A DNA stretch of 64,000 nucleotides from Planctomycetia bacterium. GTDB lineage: Bacteria; Planctomycetota; Phycisphaerae; UBA1845; UTPLA1. The translations under genes and the position numbers were made by a program. The stretch's first letter is position 1. Every line of letters begins with the position of its first letter. Under the pieces are notes generated by a model that was given only the letters and a program-made list of their open reading frames with translations, was not told where the DNA came from and did not search any database. The stretch spans positions 3,394,470 through 3,458,469 of the forward strand of contig CP054187.1 of assembly GCA_015200345.1 (NCBI GenBank). The letters run 5' to 3'. This document shows positions 25,052-30,447 of the stretch, piece after piece.

Positions 25052-25159
25052 CTAAGTGAAGCCGCGATGAGCATCCATCTGTGGCACCGGCGTCTCGCCT
25101 GTGATTCACCCGCCGCGGCGGGTGCCACACCCGATGAATCATTCCGCGGCTCCACTTAG
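25052..25159 (-). repeat. Hairpin-rich element with terminal inverted repeats, copy A
   Basis: This 108-base element is bounded by 14-base inverted ends: CTAAGTGAAGCCGC at 25052-25065 and GCGGCTCCACTTAG at 25146-25159, one mismatch. Inside are two GC-rich hairpins: CACCCGCC/GGCGGGTG, and CACAGGCG/CGCCGGTG with one mismatch. Read on the minus strand it aligns along its whole length with copy B at 30256-30364. The end adjoining miaB contains the miaB stop codon. It has no coding capacity and resembles a MITE or REP/BIME-type palindromic unit. No transposase is in the window. Confidence 0.85.
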
Positions 25160-26727
25160 TTCGCGCAACTCGACGGCAGCACGTTGAGCGATCGACGCGA
25201 GGCCGGCGGGGTGCCGGCCGCACCGATGCGATCTGCGGTTTCCGCCGCTTCGGCGAGATCGCCGTGCATCGTGTGCGGGGTGACGGCCGTGACGCGCACC
25301 GGCACGATGCGACCGATCAGCTCGGCGCGGCCGCTGAAGACGACAATCTGATCGCCGGAAGTTCGCCCGACGAGCTGGCCAGCGAAAACGGCGCGGCGGT
25401 CATCGTGCGCGGCGATTTCGCGGCCTCGGTCCTGCTCGGATTCCTGCGCCTGAATGGCGCGTTTGCTGGGGCCTTCGACGAGTACGTCGACGACGCGGTC
25501 GATCATGGCGCGATGGTTGGCGAGGCTGATGTCGGCCTGTACGGCGAGCATGTCGTTATTTCGGCGGCGTTTGACGGCTTCGGGCACGTCGTCGGGCAGG
25601 CGGTCGTGGGCCGTCGTGCCCGGTCGCGTCGAGTACTTGAATATGTAGCAATTTTTATACTTGCAACGTCGAAGCAGATCGAGGCTGGCGGCGAAATCGG
25701 CCTCGGTCTCGCCGGAGAAGCCGACGATCATGTCGCCGGAGATGCAGACATCGGGCATGGCCGCCCGGGCGCGGTCGATGAAGGCGAGATACTGCTCAAC
25801 GGTGTAGCCGCGGTTCATGCGCTTCAGCACGGGGTTGCTGCCGCTCTGCGCGGGGACGTGCAGGTAGCGGCAGATGCGTGGCGACTCGGCCATGACCTGG
25901 AGGGCTTCGTCGGTGAAATCGCGCGGGTAGCTGGTGACGAATCGCAGCCGCGGCAGTTCGGGCACCTCGTCGTGCACGCGCCGCAGCAGGGCCGCGAACG
26001 AGGTCTCGCGCCCGGCGTCGTCGATGTGGTGATAATGATTGACCGTCTGCCCCAGGAGCGTCACTTCCATGACACCTGCCGCGGCGAGGCGGCGCACCTC
26101 GTCCACGATCTGATCGGCCGGTCGATGGACCTCCGGCCCGCGCGTGTACGGAACGACGCAGAAGGTGCAGTACTTGTTGCACCCGCGCGTGATGCGCACA
26201 TAGGCCTGGTGCCGGCCGACGACGCGCGGCATGGCGACGTGCGGCTCCAGACCCAGCGCACGGCCCGAATCCAGCGCTTCGAGATCGTCGTGCTGCGCCA
26301 GCGTATGGACCGGCGTCGAAAGATCACGCAATCGGCCCGAGAGCGCCACGGCGCGCTTGCGCCGCGTTTGCACGTCGGCTATCAAAGCCGGCAAACGGTG
26401 CAACTCCGATGGGCCGCAGAGGATGTCCACCATCGGCGCGCGCTCGAGCAGGCGCTCGCCGTCGCGCTCGGCCATGCAGCCGATGACGGCGACGATCTGA
26501 TCGGGGTTTCGCCCGCGGCTGCGTTTGAGCTGACCCAGGCGCGACCAGACTTTGTCCTCCGCGTGTTGACGCACCGAGCAGGTGTTGATGATCACCACGT
26601 CGGCGCGGTGGAGATCGCCGGTCGGCTCGTAGCCGGTCGCGCGGAGCGAGCCGAAGACCAGCTCGCTGTCCAGCACGTTCATCTGGCAGCCCATCGTCTC
26701 GAGGTAAATGGTCGGGCGCGGGGTCAT
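25156..26727 (-). CDS. miaB: tRNA-2-methylthio-N6-dimethylallyladenosine synthase MiaB
   Basis: This radical-SAM methylthiotransferase modifies A37 of tRNAs reading UNN codons. It has 523 residues, with three domains. The N-terminal UPF0004 domain has METMGCQMN-like text (Cys14) and INTCSV. The radical SAM cluster is GCNKYCTFC. The C-terminal TRAM domain is at about 400-470. A low-conservation tail (about 475-523) is longer than usual. The ATG overlaps the upstream TPR gene's stop as ATGA. The TAA stop lies inside the end of repeat copy A, so an insertion has probably replaced the original 3' end. Confidence 0.95.
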   Translation of the reverse strand: MTPRPTIYLETMGCQMNVLDSELVFGSLRATGYEPTGDLHRADVVIINTCSVRQHAEDKVWSRLGQLKRSRGRNPDQIVAVIGCMAERDGERLLERAPMVDILCGPSELHRLPALIADVQTRRKRAVALSGRLRDLSTPVHTLAQHDDLEALDSGRALGLEPHVAMPRVVGRHQAYVRITRGCNKYCTFCVVPYTRGPEVHRPADQIVDEVRRLAAAGVMEVTLLGQTVNHYHHIDDAGRETSFAALLRRVHDEVPELPRLRFVTSYPRDFTDEALQVMAESPRICRYLHVPAQSGSNPVLKRMNRGYTVEQYLAFIDRARAAMPDVCISGDMIVGFSGETEADFAASLDLLRRCKYKNCYIFKYSTRPGTTAHDRLPDDVPEAVKRRRNNDMLAVQADISLANHRAMIDRVVDVLVEGPSKRAIQAQESEQDRGREIAAHDDRRAVFAGQLVGRTSGDQIVVFSGRAELIGRIVPVRVTAVTPHTMHGDLAEAAETADRIGAAGTPPASRRSLNVLPSSCAN

Positions 26728-27296
26728 GGCTGGCTGGCCCCCGCGCGCGGCGATGAACTCGATGTCGTCGCTTGCGTCGTTGAAGAACGCGAGATGGCAT
26801 CGAGGCGCTTCGTCGCGGCGTCGCGCAGGTTTTTCGGCGTGGACGGGTGCGCGACGCATTCGCGGTAAAGCTCCTCGGCCTTCGCCGGGCGCGTGAGCGC
26901 TTCATACGCCTTGGCCGCCCAATAGAGCGCCGCGCCCACATTCGCGCTGTCCGGCGTCAGGATCACTAACCGCATGGCCGTCAGACCTGCGCGGGCAGCC
27001 TGATCGCGCGCCAGCGCCAGTTCGCATTCAAAGAGCTGCCACGCTTCGCGCTCGGCTTGAAGGCGAATGCGCAGACCGGCCTTGAGCAGGGCCTCGGCAC
27101 GATCGTAGCGTTTCTCGCGCAGGGCGGTGCGGGCCTGTTGCCGCAGGTTGGCCGATTCTTTCGCGGAAGCCGGCGTTTGTATGATCGGCGGCGCGGCGCG
27201 CGATCGCGGCGCGGTCGGCGCGCTCTGGAACGCGGTCGCGTGCGCGGCGAGCACCACGACGAACACGGCCATCGACCATGAGAAGGAGGTTCTCAC
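26724..27296 (-). CDS. Exported TPR-like protein upstream of miaB
   Basis: The 190-residue protein starts at GTG 27296, with ATG 27272 as an alternative, and has a signal peptide ending near AHATA. The mature part (about 55-165) has repeated helical pairs such as RTALREKRYDRAEALLKAGL and AAKAYEALTRPAKAEELYREC, typical of tetratricopeptide repeats. A Ser/Thr-rich tail follows. Its stop overlaps the miaB start, so the two are translationally coupled, although no functional link is known. Confidence 0.7.
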   Translation of the reverse strand: MRTSFSWSMAVFVVVLAAHATAFQSAPTAPRSRAAPPIIQTPASAKESANLRQQARTALREKRYDRAEALLKAGLRIRLQAEREAWQLFECELALARDQAARAGLTAMRLVILTPDSANVGAALYWAAKAYEALTRPAKAEELYRECVAHPSTPKNLRDAATKRLDAISRSSTTQATTSSSSPRAGASQP

Positions 27297-27382
27297 CCGA
27301 TTATGGTAACTTGCCACGGTGGAGCGGGTCAACGCGGGCGCGAGTTGAGGCGCGATAACCGGCCGCTTAGCATCCATACACC

Positions 27383-27913
27383 ATGCGAATTCGACCGGCA
27401 CCATTCCGGAAACGACGGGGCGCCTTATCGATCATCCTGGGTGTGGTCTGGCTGATCGCGGCGTCAGGCTGCCATGAGCCGCGCCATCAGTACGGCGTGA
27501 TGCCGCGGGATGGCGAGGAGCTGCCGATTCTCGATCTCGTGACGGGCACCCATTCGCACGAGACGCAGGCGATGCAGGTCGTGATTCGTGATGCGCCGAC
27601 GCTGGCCCAGATGCCGATCGTCGATGTGCCGGTGGACTTCGCGTCGCAGATGCTGCTCGTGGTGACGCTGGGGCGCGTCACGTCGGACCAGTATCTCGTG
27701 ACGATTGATCGCGTCTGGCGCGAGGGGGGCAGGCTGCGCGTGAAGACGACTGTGCAGACGCCGCCGCCGGGCGCGCCAGTCGCGATGGCCAGCCCGTATT
27801 GCATCGCCGTGGTACCGCGTTGTGACTTGAATGTGGCAGGATTCTCGACGCGGCCGCCGACGCGAACGCGCTCGTGGGAGCAAAGCACGCCGCCGGAGAA
27901 ACTGGGCGGTTAG
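27383..27913 (+). CDS. Lipoprotein with PrcB_C-like domain
   Basis: The protein has 176 residues, with a lipoprotein signal ending IAASGC. The region about 75-150 has a pattern of beta strands seen in PrcB_C domains, the C-terminal domain of protease-complex lipoprotein PrcB: DFASQMLLVVTLGR, then a strand pair and APVAMASPYCIAVVPR. The gene is divergent from the TPR/miaB pair and its last four bases overlap the convergent small gene. The PrcB_C assignment is by pattern only. Confidence 0.65.
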   Translation: MRIRPAPFRKRRGALSIILGVVWLIAASGCHEPRHQYGVMPRDGEELPILDLVTGTHSHETQAMQVVIRDAPTLAQMPIVDVPVDFASQMLLVVTLGRVTSDQYLVTIDRVWREGGRLRVKTTVQTPPPGAPVAMASPYCIAVVPRCDLNVAGFSTRPPTRTRSWEQSTPPEKLGG

Positions 27914-28158
27914 AGTTTCGTCACCTGGGTGTCGTTGTCCACGACCAATTCGATCAGCTCGCCGTCGTCCCGCTTGAGACGGAGGCGATGAAGCCAGAGC
28001 TTGTCGTGCTTGCCGTGCGCGAACCACGAGCCGGTCGGCTTGTCGCGCACGGCCTGCACCGTGCCCTCGATCTGGGTCTGCCACGCGCCTTCGCGCGTGC
28101 GGATGGTCTGCGTGATGCGCACGCGATCGTTCGGCTTGATTTCATTCATCGTGACCAT
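27910..28158 (-). CDS. Small conserved-looking cytoplasmic protein
   Basis: The 82-residue protein is mostly beta-strand forming, with alternating charged residues (VRITQTI, EGTVQAV, WLHRLRLKRDD, ELIELVVD). This suggests a small beta-barrel such as an SH3- or OB-like fold. It has no Cys, no signal peptide and no recognised family. ATG at 28149 is an alternative start. It converges on the PrcB_C-like lipoprotein gene, with a four-base overlap of the stops. Confidence 0.6.
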   Translation of the reverse strand: MVTMNEIKPNDRVRITQTIRTREGAWQTQIEGTVQAVRDKPTGSWFAHGKHDKLWLHRLRLKRDDGELIELVVDNDTQVTKL

Positions 28159-28377
28159 GGGAAACTCTCACATCGCCTTGATCGCTCCACCTGCGGCTTG
28201 CTGTTCCGCGGGAGGAAGGCGACCACGGCTCAAATGGTAACAGGCGGGCACGACCGCGGCCACGCATCGCGCTGGTCGAAGCCGCTTGCTTGACCTGCTT
28301 CACGCTTCGCGCAAGAATGCGGAGGTTCGGGGCCACGCCTCGCGGTCCTGCGAACCATTCGGAAACCCAGCGCCGCG

Positions 28378-29358
28378 ATGTCCACGCCCGCCGTCAGCGT
28401 CATCATACCGACCTTTGAACGGGCGGACCTCCTCGTCGAGGCGCTGGACAGCGTCGCCGCACAAACTTTTACCAACTACGAAGTCATTGTCATCGACGAC
28501 GGTTCCACGGAGGACATCGCCGGACGAGTCCGGGATCACTCCACGCGCCCGCGCGTGATTCGCCAGCCACACGCCGGACCGGGCACGGCGCGCAATCGCG
28601 GCATGGCCGAGGCACGCGCCCCGATGGTTGCCTTCCTCGATAGCGACGACCTGTGGCTGCCGACCAAGCTTGAGCGCTTCATGGCGGCGCTGGCGACGCC
28701 CGGCGTCCCGCGCATCTGGTACGGTCCGATGAGCCCGATCGACGCGCGGCGGCAGCCGGTTCGCGGCCGCACGAAGGATTGCTTCGAGGGCGACATCACC
28801 GAGCGGTTGTTCTGTAAGAGTTTCGTGCACGTGCCGACCGTCGTGTGCGACCGCGCGCTGCTCATCGACGCGGGCGGGTTTGAGGAATCGCTGCCGGTTT
28901 GCGAGGACTACGATCTGTGGCTGCGCGTGTCGGCGGCGCAGCGGTTCGGGCTGATCCCCGAGCCGCTGGCGCTGCGACGATTGCACGACGGGCGATTGAG
29001 CAAATCAGACATGAGTCGAAATGTCGCTGTGAAGGCACGGATGCTGGAGCGGTTTTATCGCTCGCCGTTGGGGGCGAAAAAGCTTAATCGCGGCATTGCC
29101 GAGGCGAGGCTGGCGCGGGTCTATCTGGCGGCGGGACGAGCGGCGTTCTTCACGGCGAACTATTTCGATGCGGCGGCGCTGTGCGCCAAGGCCCGCGAGT
29201 TCGGCGGTTCGCCGCTGCGCGCGGGGCCGATCCGTTTCCTGTCACGCGTGTTGGGAAGGGTCATCGGGAACTCCGCGATCACCGCGCGAACAACTCATGC
29301 CGATTCCATGTGTACGAAACCGGCGGATTGCAATCCCTCGTCCACCAGCGTCAGATGA
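28378..29358 (+). CDS. Family 2 glycosyltransferase
   Basis: The 326-residue GT-A fold enzyme transfers sugars from a nucleotide donor. It begins AVSVIIPTFERADLLVEALDS, followed by VIVIDDGSTED and GTARNRGM, and has the metal-binding DxD in FLDSDDLW (about 81-88). The acceptor-side motif CEDYDLWLR (about 178-186) holds the likely catalytic base. The C-terminal about 90 residues are helical, TPR-like, with repeated Ala-rich helices. It has no membrane helices. It probably takes part in surface polysaccharide or glycoprotein synthesis, but no biosynthetic cluster surrounds it. Confidence 0.88.
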   Translation: MSTPAVSVIIPTFERADLLVEALDSVAAQTFTNYEVIVIDDGSTEDIAGRVRDHSTRPRVIRQPHAGPGTARNRGMAEARAPMVAFLDSDDLWLPTKLERFMAALATPGVPRIWYGPMSPIDARRQPVRGRTKDCFEGDITERLFCKSFVHVPTVVCDRALLIDAGGFEESLPVCEDYDLWLRVSAAQRFGLIPEPLALRRLHDGRLSKSDMSRNVAVKARMLERFYRSPLGAKKLNRGIAEARLARVYLAAGRAAFFTANYFDAAALCAKAREFGGSPLRAGPIRFLSRVLGRVIGNSAITARTTHADSMCTKPADCNPSSTSVR

Positions 29359-29385
29359 ATGCTGTACGATGATGTCCCGCACGCG

Positions 29386-29994
29386 TCACTCGATCATCAA
29401 GAACTCTTTCATGTGCTTGTCGTACATCTCCTGCGCCGCCGGGTCGAACATCGGCAGCCGCAGCTCATTAATCACCTTCGTCCCCATGCCGACCCATTCC
29501 TTCCAGCATTTCGCGCACACCGTCGCGTGAATCTGTTCGCCCAGCGGGCCTTTGAACGGCCGTCGTTCCATCTTCGGGCCCGGCGCACCGCAGCGCCGAC
29601 AGGAGAAACCTTCGGTCGCCGCGATGGTGCTTCCCTCGCCGGATTCCGCGCGTTTCTCCGTGACCGTCGGCACCTCCGCGCCGATCGACGTGAGCAATTC
29701 GGCCATCGCCTTCATGGGCATGAGGTCGCCCTTGCGATGGGCGATGCGGTAGCCGTTGGTCAGCGTCTGGATCGCGAGGTCCCTGTGGCCCGTGGCGATC
29801 TGCACGCGACCGAGCATCTCGTAGGCCTTGGAATGCTGGCTGTTCACCGCGAGCACGCGCTGAAAGCACGGTCCCGCGTCCATCGCGCGCCCGGCATCGA
29901 GCAGCGCCGTGCCGAGGCTGAACTGGGCCATGTCGTCGTTGGGATTCTGCTCGACGAGTTTTTGAAATTGAGCGATCTTCGCGTCGTCCGCCAT
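29386..29994 (-). CDS. TPR protein fused to a YggX-like Fe(II)-trafficking domain
   Basis: The protein has 202 residues. The first about 105 residues form TPR helices (AQFSLGTALLDAGRAMDAGPCFQRVL, KAYEMLGRVQIATGHRDLAIQTL, split here only in description). The C-terminal about 75 residues match E. coli YggX in pattern. They contain a Cys near the domain start (CRRC), then RPFKGPLGEQI, CWKEW, KVINELRLP and a closing HMKEFL. YggX is linked to iron delivery and protection of Fe-S clusters. The ATG at 29994 has GGGAGC upstream. The extra CxxC is not in E. coli YggX. Confidence 0.72.
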   Translation of the reverse strand: MADDAKIAQFQKLVEQNPNDDMAQFSLGTALLDAGRAMDAGPCFQRVLAVNSQHSKAYEMLGRVQIATGHRDLAIQTLTNGYRIAHRKGDLMPMKAMAELLTSIGAEVPTVTEKRAESGEGSTIAATEGFSCRRCGAPGPKMERRPFKGPLGEQIHATVCAKCWKEWVGMGTKVINELRLPMFDPAAQEMYDKHMKEFLMIE

Positions 29995-30447
29995 GGTGAA
30001 AGCTCCCGTTGCAATCGCGTCGGATGATTTGTCGGGGATTGTAGCGGCATGGGTTGCAACGGGCGAGCAATCCGATCCCGAAGCGCCAGCGACCGGTTGA
30101 GCATTGCGCAAACTCCTAAAACCGGGCGCTTGCGCTTCCGGCTCGGATCGCGGCGTCACGCGAAATCCGACAGTTGCTCCACCGTCGGCGGCGGGATCGG
30201 GCTGCACCACGTGCGCCATTATATGGGCAAACACCGCCAATCCCCGCAGTCACCGCTAAGTGGAGCCGCAGAATGATTCATAGGGTGTGGCACCGGCGTC
30301 CCGCCGGTGAATCACAGGCGAGACGCCTGTGCCACAGGTGAATGCTCATCGCGGCTTCACTTAGTCTGGCCGACGCGCCCGCGCTATGGTAAATTACACC
30401 GCTCGGACTGACCAGGACACAATCACCGAACCCCAGGAGGACGCGCC
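29995..30447. other. Intergenic region holding repeat copy B
   Basis: Between the divergent TPR-YggX and aldehyde dehydrogenase genes. Bases 29995-30255 are open in frame with the minus-strand gene but lack a start signal or protein-like composition. Bases 30256-30364 are the repeat. The last 83 bases should hold the dehydrogenase promoter; TATGGT near 30385 is a weak -10 candidate, and AGGAGG precedes the start codon. Confidence 0.4.
30256..30364 (+). repeat. Hairpin-rich element with terminal inverted repeats, copy B
   Basis: This 109-base element has ends CTAAGTGGAGCCGC (30256-30269) and GCGGCTTCACTTAG (30351-30364). Two internal hairpins are perfect: CACCGGCG/CGCCGGTG and CACAGGCG/CGCCTGTG. 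Compared with copy A, the first hairpin differs on both arms in a way that keeps the pairing. It sits immediately upstream of the aldehyde dehydrogenase promoter region. It has no coding capacity. Confidence 0.85.

Follow-up and report, generated by a model that had tools for sequence, protein, structure and literature searches.

The two ~108-base repeats at 25052-25159 and 30256-30364 of the 64-kb stretch of DNA analysed here (the window) are, in our reading, copies of an IS630-type miniature inverted-repeat transposable element (MITE) that was scattered at CTAG and TTAG sites by an IS630-family transposase. Judging from the sequence comparisons described below, we place the probability of this reading at roughly 0.93. 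Each element was inserted with duplication of 2 bp (TA), because the orthologous site in a congener (G001) is a bare YTAG and the filled site in this genome (G000) is Y-TA-element-TA-G. The central part of the element is an inverted pair of hairpins resembling a REPIN, which is also found outside the MITE.

The window repeats belong to a dispersed family

A preliminary description of the window had reported the two repeats and their inverted ends, and both repeats proved to be real. The copies, on the minus strand at 25052-25159 and the plus strand at 30256-30364, align from end to end; CTAAGTGRAGCCGC has four exact matches in the window, which are the four ends of both elements; and folding of both repeats is far stronger than that of shuffled sequence (z -5.6 to -9.5). 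The inverted ends stand with a correction: the outermost C and G belong to the CTAG target and the TA next to each is the duplication, so that the element proper has the limits given in Table 1.

Table 1. Features of the two window copies
Feature	Position	Strand	Sequence or setting	Basis
MITE copy 1, element proper, 102 bp	25055..25156	-	between miaB and pilT-like ATPase gene (T2SSE family)	alignment with other copies; empty site in G001
Duplicated target TA, left of copy 1	25053..25054			G001 CTAG versus filled CTA...TAG
Duplicated target TA, right of copy 1	25157..25158			comparison with G001
REPIN-like core of copy 1	25080..25129	-	TGTGG-hairpin-linker-hairpin-CCACA	
Hairpin 1 of copy 1	25107..25124	-	CACCCGCC GC GGCGGGTG	
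Hairpin 2 of copy 1	25085..25103	-	one stem mismatch	
MITE copy 2, element proper, 103 bp	30259..30361	+	divergent intergenic region, TPR/iron-traffic-domain gene versus aldehyde dehydrogenase gene	G001 empty site
Duplicated target TA, left of copy 2	30257..30258			comparison with G001
Duplicated target TA, right of copy 2	30362..30363			comparison with G001
REPIN-like core of copy 2	30286..30336	+		
Hairpin 1 of copy 2	30291..30309	+	CACCGGCG TCC CGCCGGTG, GTGG just before	
Hairpin 2 of copy 2	30313..30331	+	CACAGGCG AGA CGCCTGTG, GTGG tag on opposite strand	

The possibility that only these two copies exist was dismissed by a search of the whole 3.88-Mb single-contig genome, which returned 20 matches over most of the element at 82-100% identity, together with ~20 further places that carry the inner ~50-bp core alone. 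The family copies are dispersed around the contig, with a mean pairwise identity of 84% among the 20 (closest pair, 98%). The family thus has the properties of a MITE, being short (~108 bp, below 200 bp), non-coding, dispersed in 20 copies and bounded by terminal inverted repeats. One copy (L002) has the terminus CTTAT instead of CTTAG. No exact match to the full-element pattern was found in a scan of 84,980 species. Imperfect partner ends also occur in the genome and were left uninterpreted, because a reversed control pattern was matched more often than the pattern itself.

Empty sites in a congener show insertion with TA duplication

G001, the sole congener compared, consists of one contig and is 87-90% identical to G000 at the L004 locus. 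Query segments beside each of the 20 copies were located in G001 in every case (20/20), and clean empty junctions were obtained for eight copies, including both window copies (L008, at 25052, and L001, at 30256). For 12 of the 20, the orthologous locus was found and the junction was intergenic, diverged and without a clean alignment. The empty site was a bare CTAG for six copies (L001, L002, L006, L008, L009 and L011) and a bare TTAG for two (L004 and L015), and filled sites in G000 read C-TA-[AGTGG...CACT]-TA-G. At the window copies, the empty sites are CAATT-CTAG-GTCGC (copy 1) and TCG-CTAG-TCTGG (copy 2). The search for flanking duplications that had been proposed was successful, with the TA duplication found at the eight clean empty sites. 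CTAG is ~12-fold depleted in the window (17 observed in 64 kb, 213 expected); the eight YTAG empty sites are therefore not due to chance, and the CTAG target of the elements is a rare site here.

Insertion into TAG stop codons leaves the protein end unchanged

Six of the 20 copies (L002, L004, L008, L009, L011 and L015) lie exactly in a stop codon. The six genes have a TAG stop in G001 and a TAA stop in G000, and their C-terminus is kept at the identical residue, because an element that has A as its first base, once inserted at C-TA-G, yields C-TAA whichever way it lies. Copy 1 of the window (L008) turned the TAG of miaB, found at the equivalent position in G001, into a TAA at 25156-25158 (minus strand) that is made up of the element's first base and the right duplicated TA, and it now separates miaB from the pilT-like gene. 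A CTAG target combined with a first base A allows protein-silent insertion into TAG stops, a simple route to tolerance in gene-dense DNA. Placement in stop codons need not mean a preference for stops. We do not claim such a preference beyond that for CTAG, as the numbers (6/20 copies, compared with 2/17 window CTAGs at gene-like stops) are too few.

IS630 elements of related genomes share the element ends

A TA duplication within CTAG suggests the IS630 family. Neither an IS630 DDE domain nor a relative of the IS630 transposase of genome G016 was found in G000 or G001. IS630 transposases are present in genomes of the same family or order, namely G016, G014, G002 (four), G055, G028 and two further MAG species. 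A scan of loci L090-L095 for terminal inverted repeats, with TA imposed, gave no pair; contigs or copies were broken there, and the IS630 ends were therefore taken from intact relatives. The intact copies of G002 start C-TAAGTAGAAACGCAAAATGATTTACC and, at the other end read inward, C-TAAGTAGAAACGCAGAATCC; the G028 end is C-TAAGTGGTTTTCCAAAATGATTCAG. In the IS630 elements of G002 (intact), G028 and D1_Bin_8, both ends read C-TAAGT(A/G)G... and are flanked by C and G, as expected of a CTAG target. When the G016 end was slid along the window, it matched at 21/26 and 20/26 bases at the two elements, and the next best of 127,948 positions reached 16/26; the G002 and G028 ends gave a similar outcome. 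Counting against the reading, the right arm of the G000 element fits the IS ends less closely (8-14 of 26 bases) than does the left (15-21 of 26).

MITEs of like architecture exist in G016, G014 and G006. Those of the sister genus g6 have the same architecture with different arms, and the arms of the G016 MITE are most similar to the IS630 of G016 itself (22/26). An autonomous IS630 partner is co-resident with the MITEs in G016 and G014, and none was found in G000. MITEs can outlive their autonomous partner, and a co-resident partner is no strict requirement. The G000 copies are orphans, since no IS630 transposase was found in that genome; its IS630 gene would have been lost or never resident. 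From the relatives, we infer that this IS630 group is what moved the copies. The proposal that the repeats are non-autonomous mobile elements like MITEs is thus supported by the empty sites, the TA duplication and the matching IS630 ends.

According to the mechanism that we propose, an IS630-family transposase encoded elsewhere would recognise the ends, AGTGGAGCCGCAGAATGATTCA... and its inverted partner, presumably reading these terminal repeats and not the hairpins, and would place the ~103-bp unit at the TA within CTAG or TTAG, duplicating the TA. Where the CTAG includes a TAG stop, insertion would create CTAA and the gene would end at an unchanged residue. The REPIN-like module would spread independently in the phylum, and most likely became part of the MITE before this genus and g6 diverged; the MITEs of g6 have this core between other arms.

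The hairpin core covaries as a phylum-wide module

The central ~50 bp of the element consists of two hairpins in inverted orientation, each tagged with GTGG. The published rule for REPs requires a stem of 7-20 bp closed by a loop of 2-5 nt, with GTAG or GTGG lying 0-2 nt 5' of it (PMC6006769), and the inner core agrees with the GTGG-tagged version of this rule. It also has the two inverted units and the many dispersed copies, outside the MITE too, of a REPIN. Tagged REPs were previously reported in Planctomycetes by Di Nocera and colleagues (PMC3733652). We found the core in 31 of 61 related genomes, mostly without IS630-type ends, and it is dispersed by itself in the order and in the phylum. 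The inner ~50 bp is built like two REPs in inverted arrangement, and the earlier comparison with REP/BIME units holds for this part but fails for the 108-bp unit as a whole.

The preliminary description correctly noted that hairpin 1 differs on both arms between the window copies with pairing kept (Table 1), and it gave this pattern as expected if the folded DNA or RNA is under selection or is the unit that a transposase recognises. The step from covariation to recognition by a transposase was based on a single two-state difference. Across the 20 local copies, hairpin 1 is divided into 6 versus 11 copies, plus 3 with one-sided changes; the both-sided change in G000 is essentially one two-state allele switch at one pair. 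Covariation in the 20 copies was rejected as proof of selection: the number of both-side-changed pairs was 3, compared with a shuffle mean of 3.1, and these were mostly the one switch.

Strong covariation of the core is seen only in the comparison across genomes. Core hairpins consist of GTGG, an 8-bp stem and a TCT, TCC or GC loop, and the stem is perfect in 101 of 198 scored halves. All four bases are used at stem positions 4 and 8, which are paired in 59 and 65 of 67 distinct units, respectively (shuffled expectation, 30 and 37). The pattern GTGGCACNGGCNTCYNGCCNGTG, in which positions 4 and 8 are free, was matched in 21 of 294 genomes of the phylum and a control pattern in 0; both free pairs were complementary in 117 of 130 of the matches listed. 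The hairpins do covary, as a module separate from the MITE, and the opposite expectation, that other copies lack paired changes, did not hold outright, as paired changes are seen across genomes. This hairpin family spans the phylum and has positions that compensate freely, and it provides a test set for the recogniser of GTGG-tagged hairpins in Planctomycetota.

The core was also seen in other arrangements. At four loci of G024 (L208, L210, L212 and L214), GTGGCAC cores are bordered by a different pair of inverted arms, AGAAACTATCTCAA / TTGAGACAGTTTCT, and these loci apparently represent another family of palindromic elements with this core. At L227 (G035:C30:290400-290720), single GTGGCAC hairpins occur in tandem with a period of ~43 bp, direct and not inverted.

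Possible role of RAYTs in spreading the core

Four Y1_Tnp matches were found in G000, and the scanned flanks of these RAYT loci contained no repeat unit. Single GTGGCAC hairpins lie ~400 bp or less from three RAYTs (L070, L081 and L263), and L240 (G003:C107) has three copies of GTGGCACAGCCGCCCCCGGCTGTG at 661-775, ~200-300 bp from a Y1_Tnp domain. It is possible that this triplet links the GTGGCAC hairpin family to a RAYT. Among the RAYT loci examined, none had this core on both sides; single hairpins and the one triplet were what lay nearby. Two other RAYTs (L270 and L275, genome G226) are each bracketed by two inverted copies of a different, GTAG-tagged hairpin (GTAGCGCCGCCTTCAGGCGGCA; GTAGCGCCGACTTCAGTCGGCC) and have the layout of classical REPtrons in Planctomycetota. 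The transposase with matching ends that had been sought exists as an IS630 (DDE) element in relatives and was found neither in the genome itself nor as a RAYT flanked on both sides. A RAYT is plausible as the mover of the core, and we have low to moderate confidence that RAYTs drive the core as a replicator in its own right. We regard as tentative the further idea of two nested replicators, in which a REPIN-type pair with a probable RAYT system sits inside an IS630-type MITE, the unit can be copied by two unrelated transposases, and the core, present inside at least one other palindromic family in related genomes, acts as a module shared between mini-transposons.

Alternative explanations

The RAYTs of G000 raise the question of whether a resident RAYT (a Y1 HUH transposase), and not IS630, moved all 108 bp as a large REPIN or BIME. 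In favour of this explanation, the inner core obeys the REP rule and the genome has the four Y1_Tnp matches. However, HUH transposition is not known to produce a target duplication, and the TA is duplicated here, which refutes the explanation for the outer element; the element ends match those of IS630, and no repeat unit was found in the RAYT flanks scanned in G000. We consider it very improbable. The same low probability applies to mobilisation by another TA-duplicating family (e.g. IS5/IS427-like) or an unknown transposase, with a convergent likeness to IS630 ends. Such a family would account for the failure to find an IS630 gene in G000, but not for end matches of 21/26 and 20/26 that are unmatched among the window positions, for the identical CTAG flanks, or for the matched MITE and IS arms within g6, and these ends were not seen on an intact element from any other family.

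Least probable, and by our estimate close to negligible, is that selection holds the elements in place as conserved structured RNAs, regulatory sites or terminators. The strong folds and the location of sites between genes of possible operons are in keeping with such a role, but the congener has a bare YTAG and no element at orthologous sites, no Rfam match was obtained for the three loci searched, and no terminator T-run lies 3' of the hairpins. Single copies may have been co-opted later. The evidence argues for the IS630-type MITE.

Relationship to known elements

The closest described element is RUP of Streptococcus pneumoniae with IS630-Spn1. RUP is ~107 bp long, non-coding, strongly folded and inserted at TA, with inverted ends like those of IS630-Spn1, in the passages that describe it (PMC3049150, PMC2229807), and those passages report no further signatures of structure or function (PMC2229807). 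The Planctomycetota element is of a like kind in another phylum; it differs from RUP in end sequence, in a target narrowed to CTAG/TTAG, in having no partner IS in the genome, in silent stop-codon insertion and in its nested, independently dispersed hairpin pair. Correia/NEMIS, ERIC and Nezha MITEs are described in the same sources as dispersed, highly base-paired elements of 100-200 bp with terminal inverted repeats and TA ends (PMC2229807, PMC3049150). Their hosts are different, Nezha is linked to ISNpu3-like elements, and the passages on them make no mention of a REP-pair core or stop-codon conversion. GTAG/GTGG-tagged REPs, REPINs and BIMEs resemble the inner core in the GTGG tag, 8-bp stem, 2-3 nt loop, inverted pairing and many copies; in contrast to these and their RAYTs, the hairpin pair here lies inside an IS630-type MITE. 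A literature search, with most subscription papers outside it, returned no account of IS630 MITEs in Planctomycetota or of insertion into stop codons. The composite element is new and unusual and its mechanism known. It gives a clean bacterial example of a MITE whose target, duplication and likely mobiliser all follow from sequence, within a phylum where the genetics of mobile elements is little developed.

The IS630 elements of Phycisphaerae/Planctomycetota MAGs (G002, G016, G028, OFTM236 and D1_Bin_8) have the terminal sequence and the CTAG target in common with the MITE; unlike it, they are autonomous, ~1.2 kb long and encode a transposase, and they lack the hairpin core at their ends. Two individual copies had further features. 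The IS630 transposase of L090 (G016:C604) is in two frames that overlap at an A-rich run, CTAAAAAAAACG, at ~225-245, and resembles IS elements with frameshift expression. At L092 (G014:C1, ~1.0 Mb), a decayed IS630 is interrupted at positions ~830-1470 by DNA with a Y1 (IS200/IS605-type) transposase domain match (L061).
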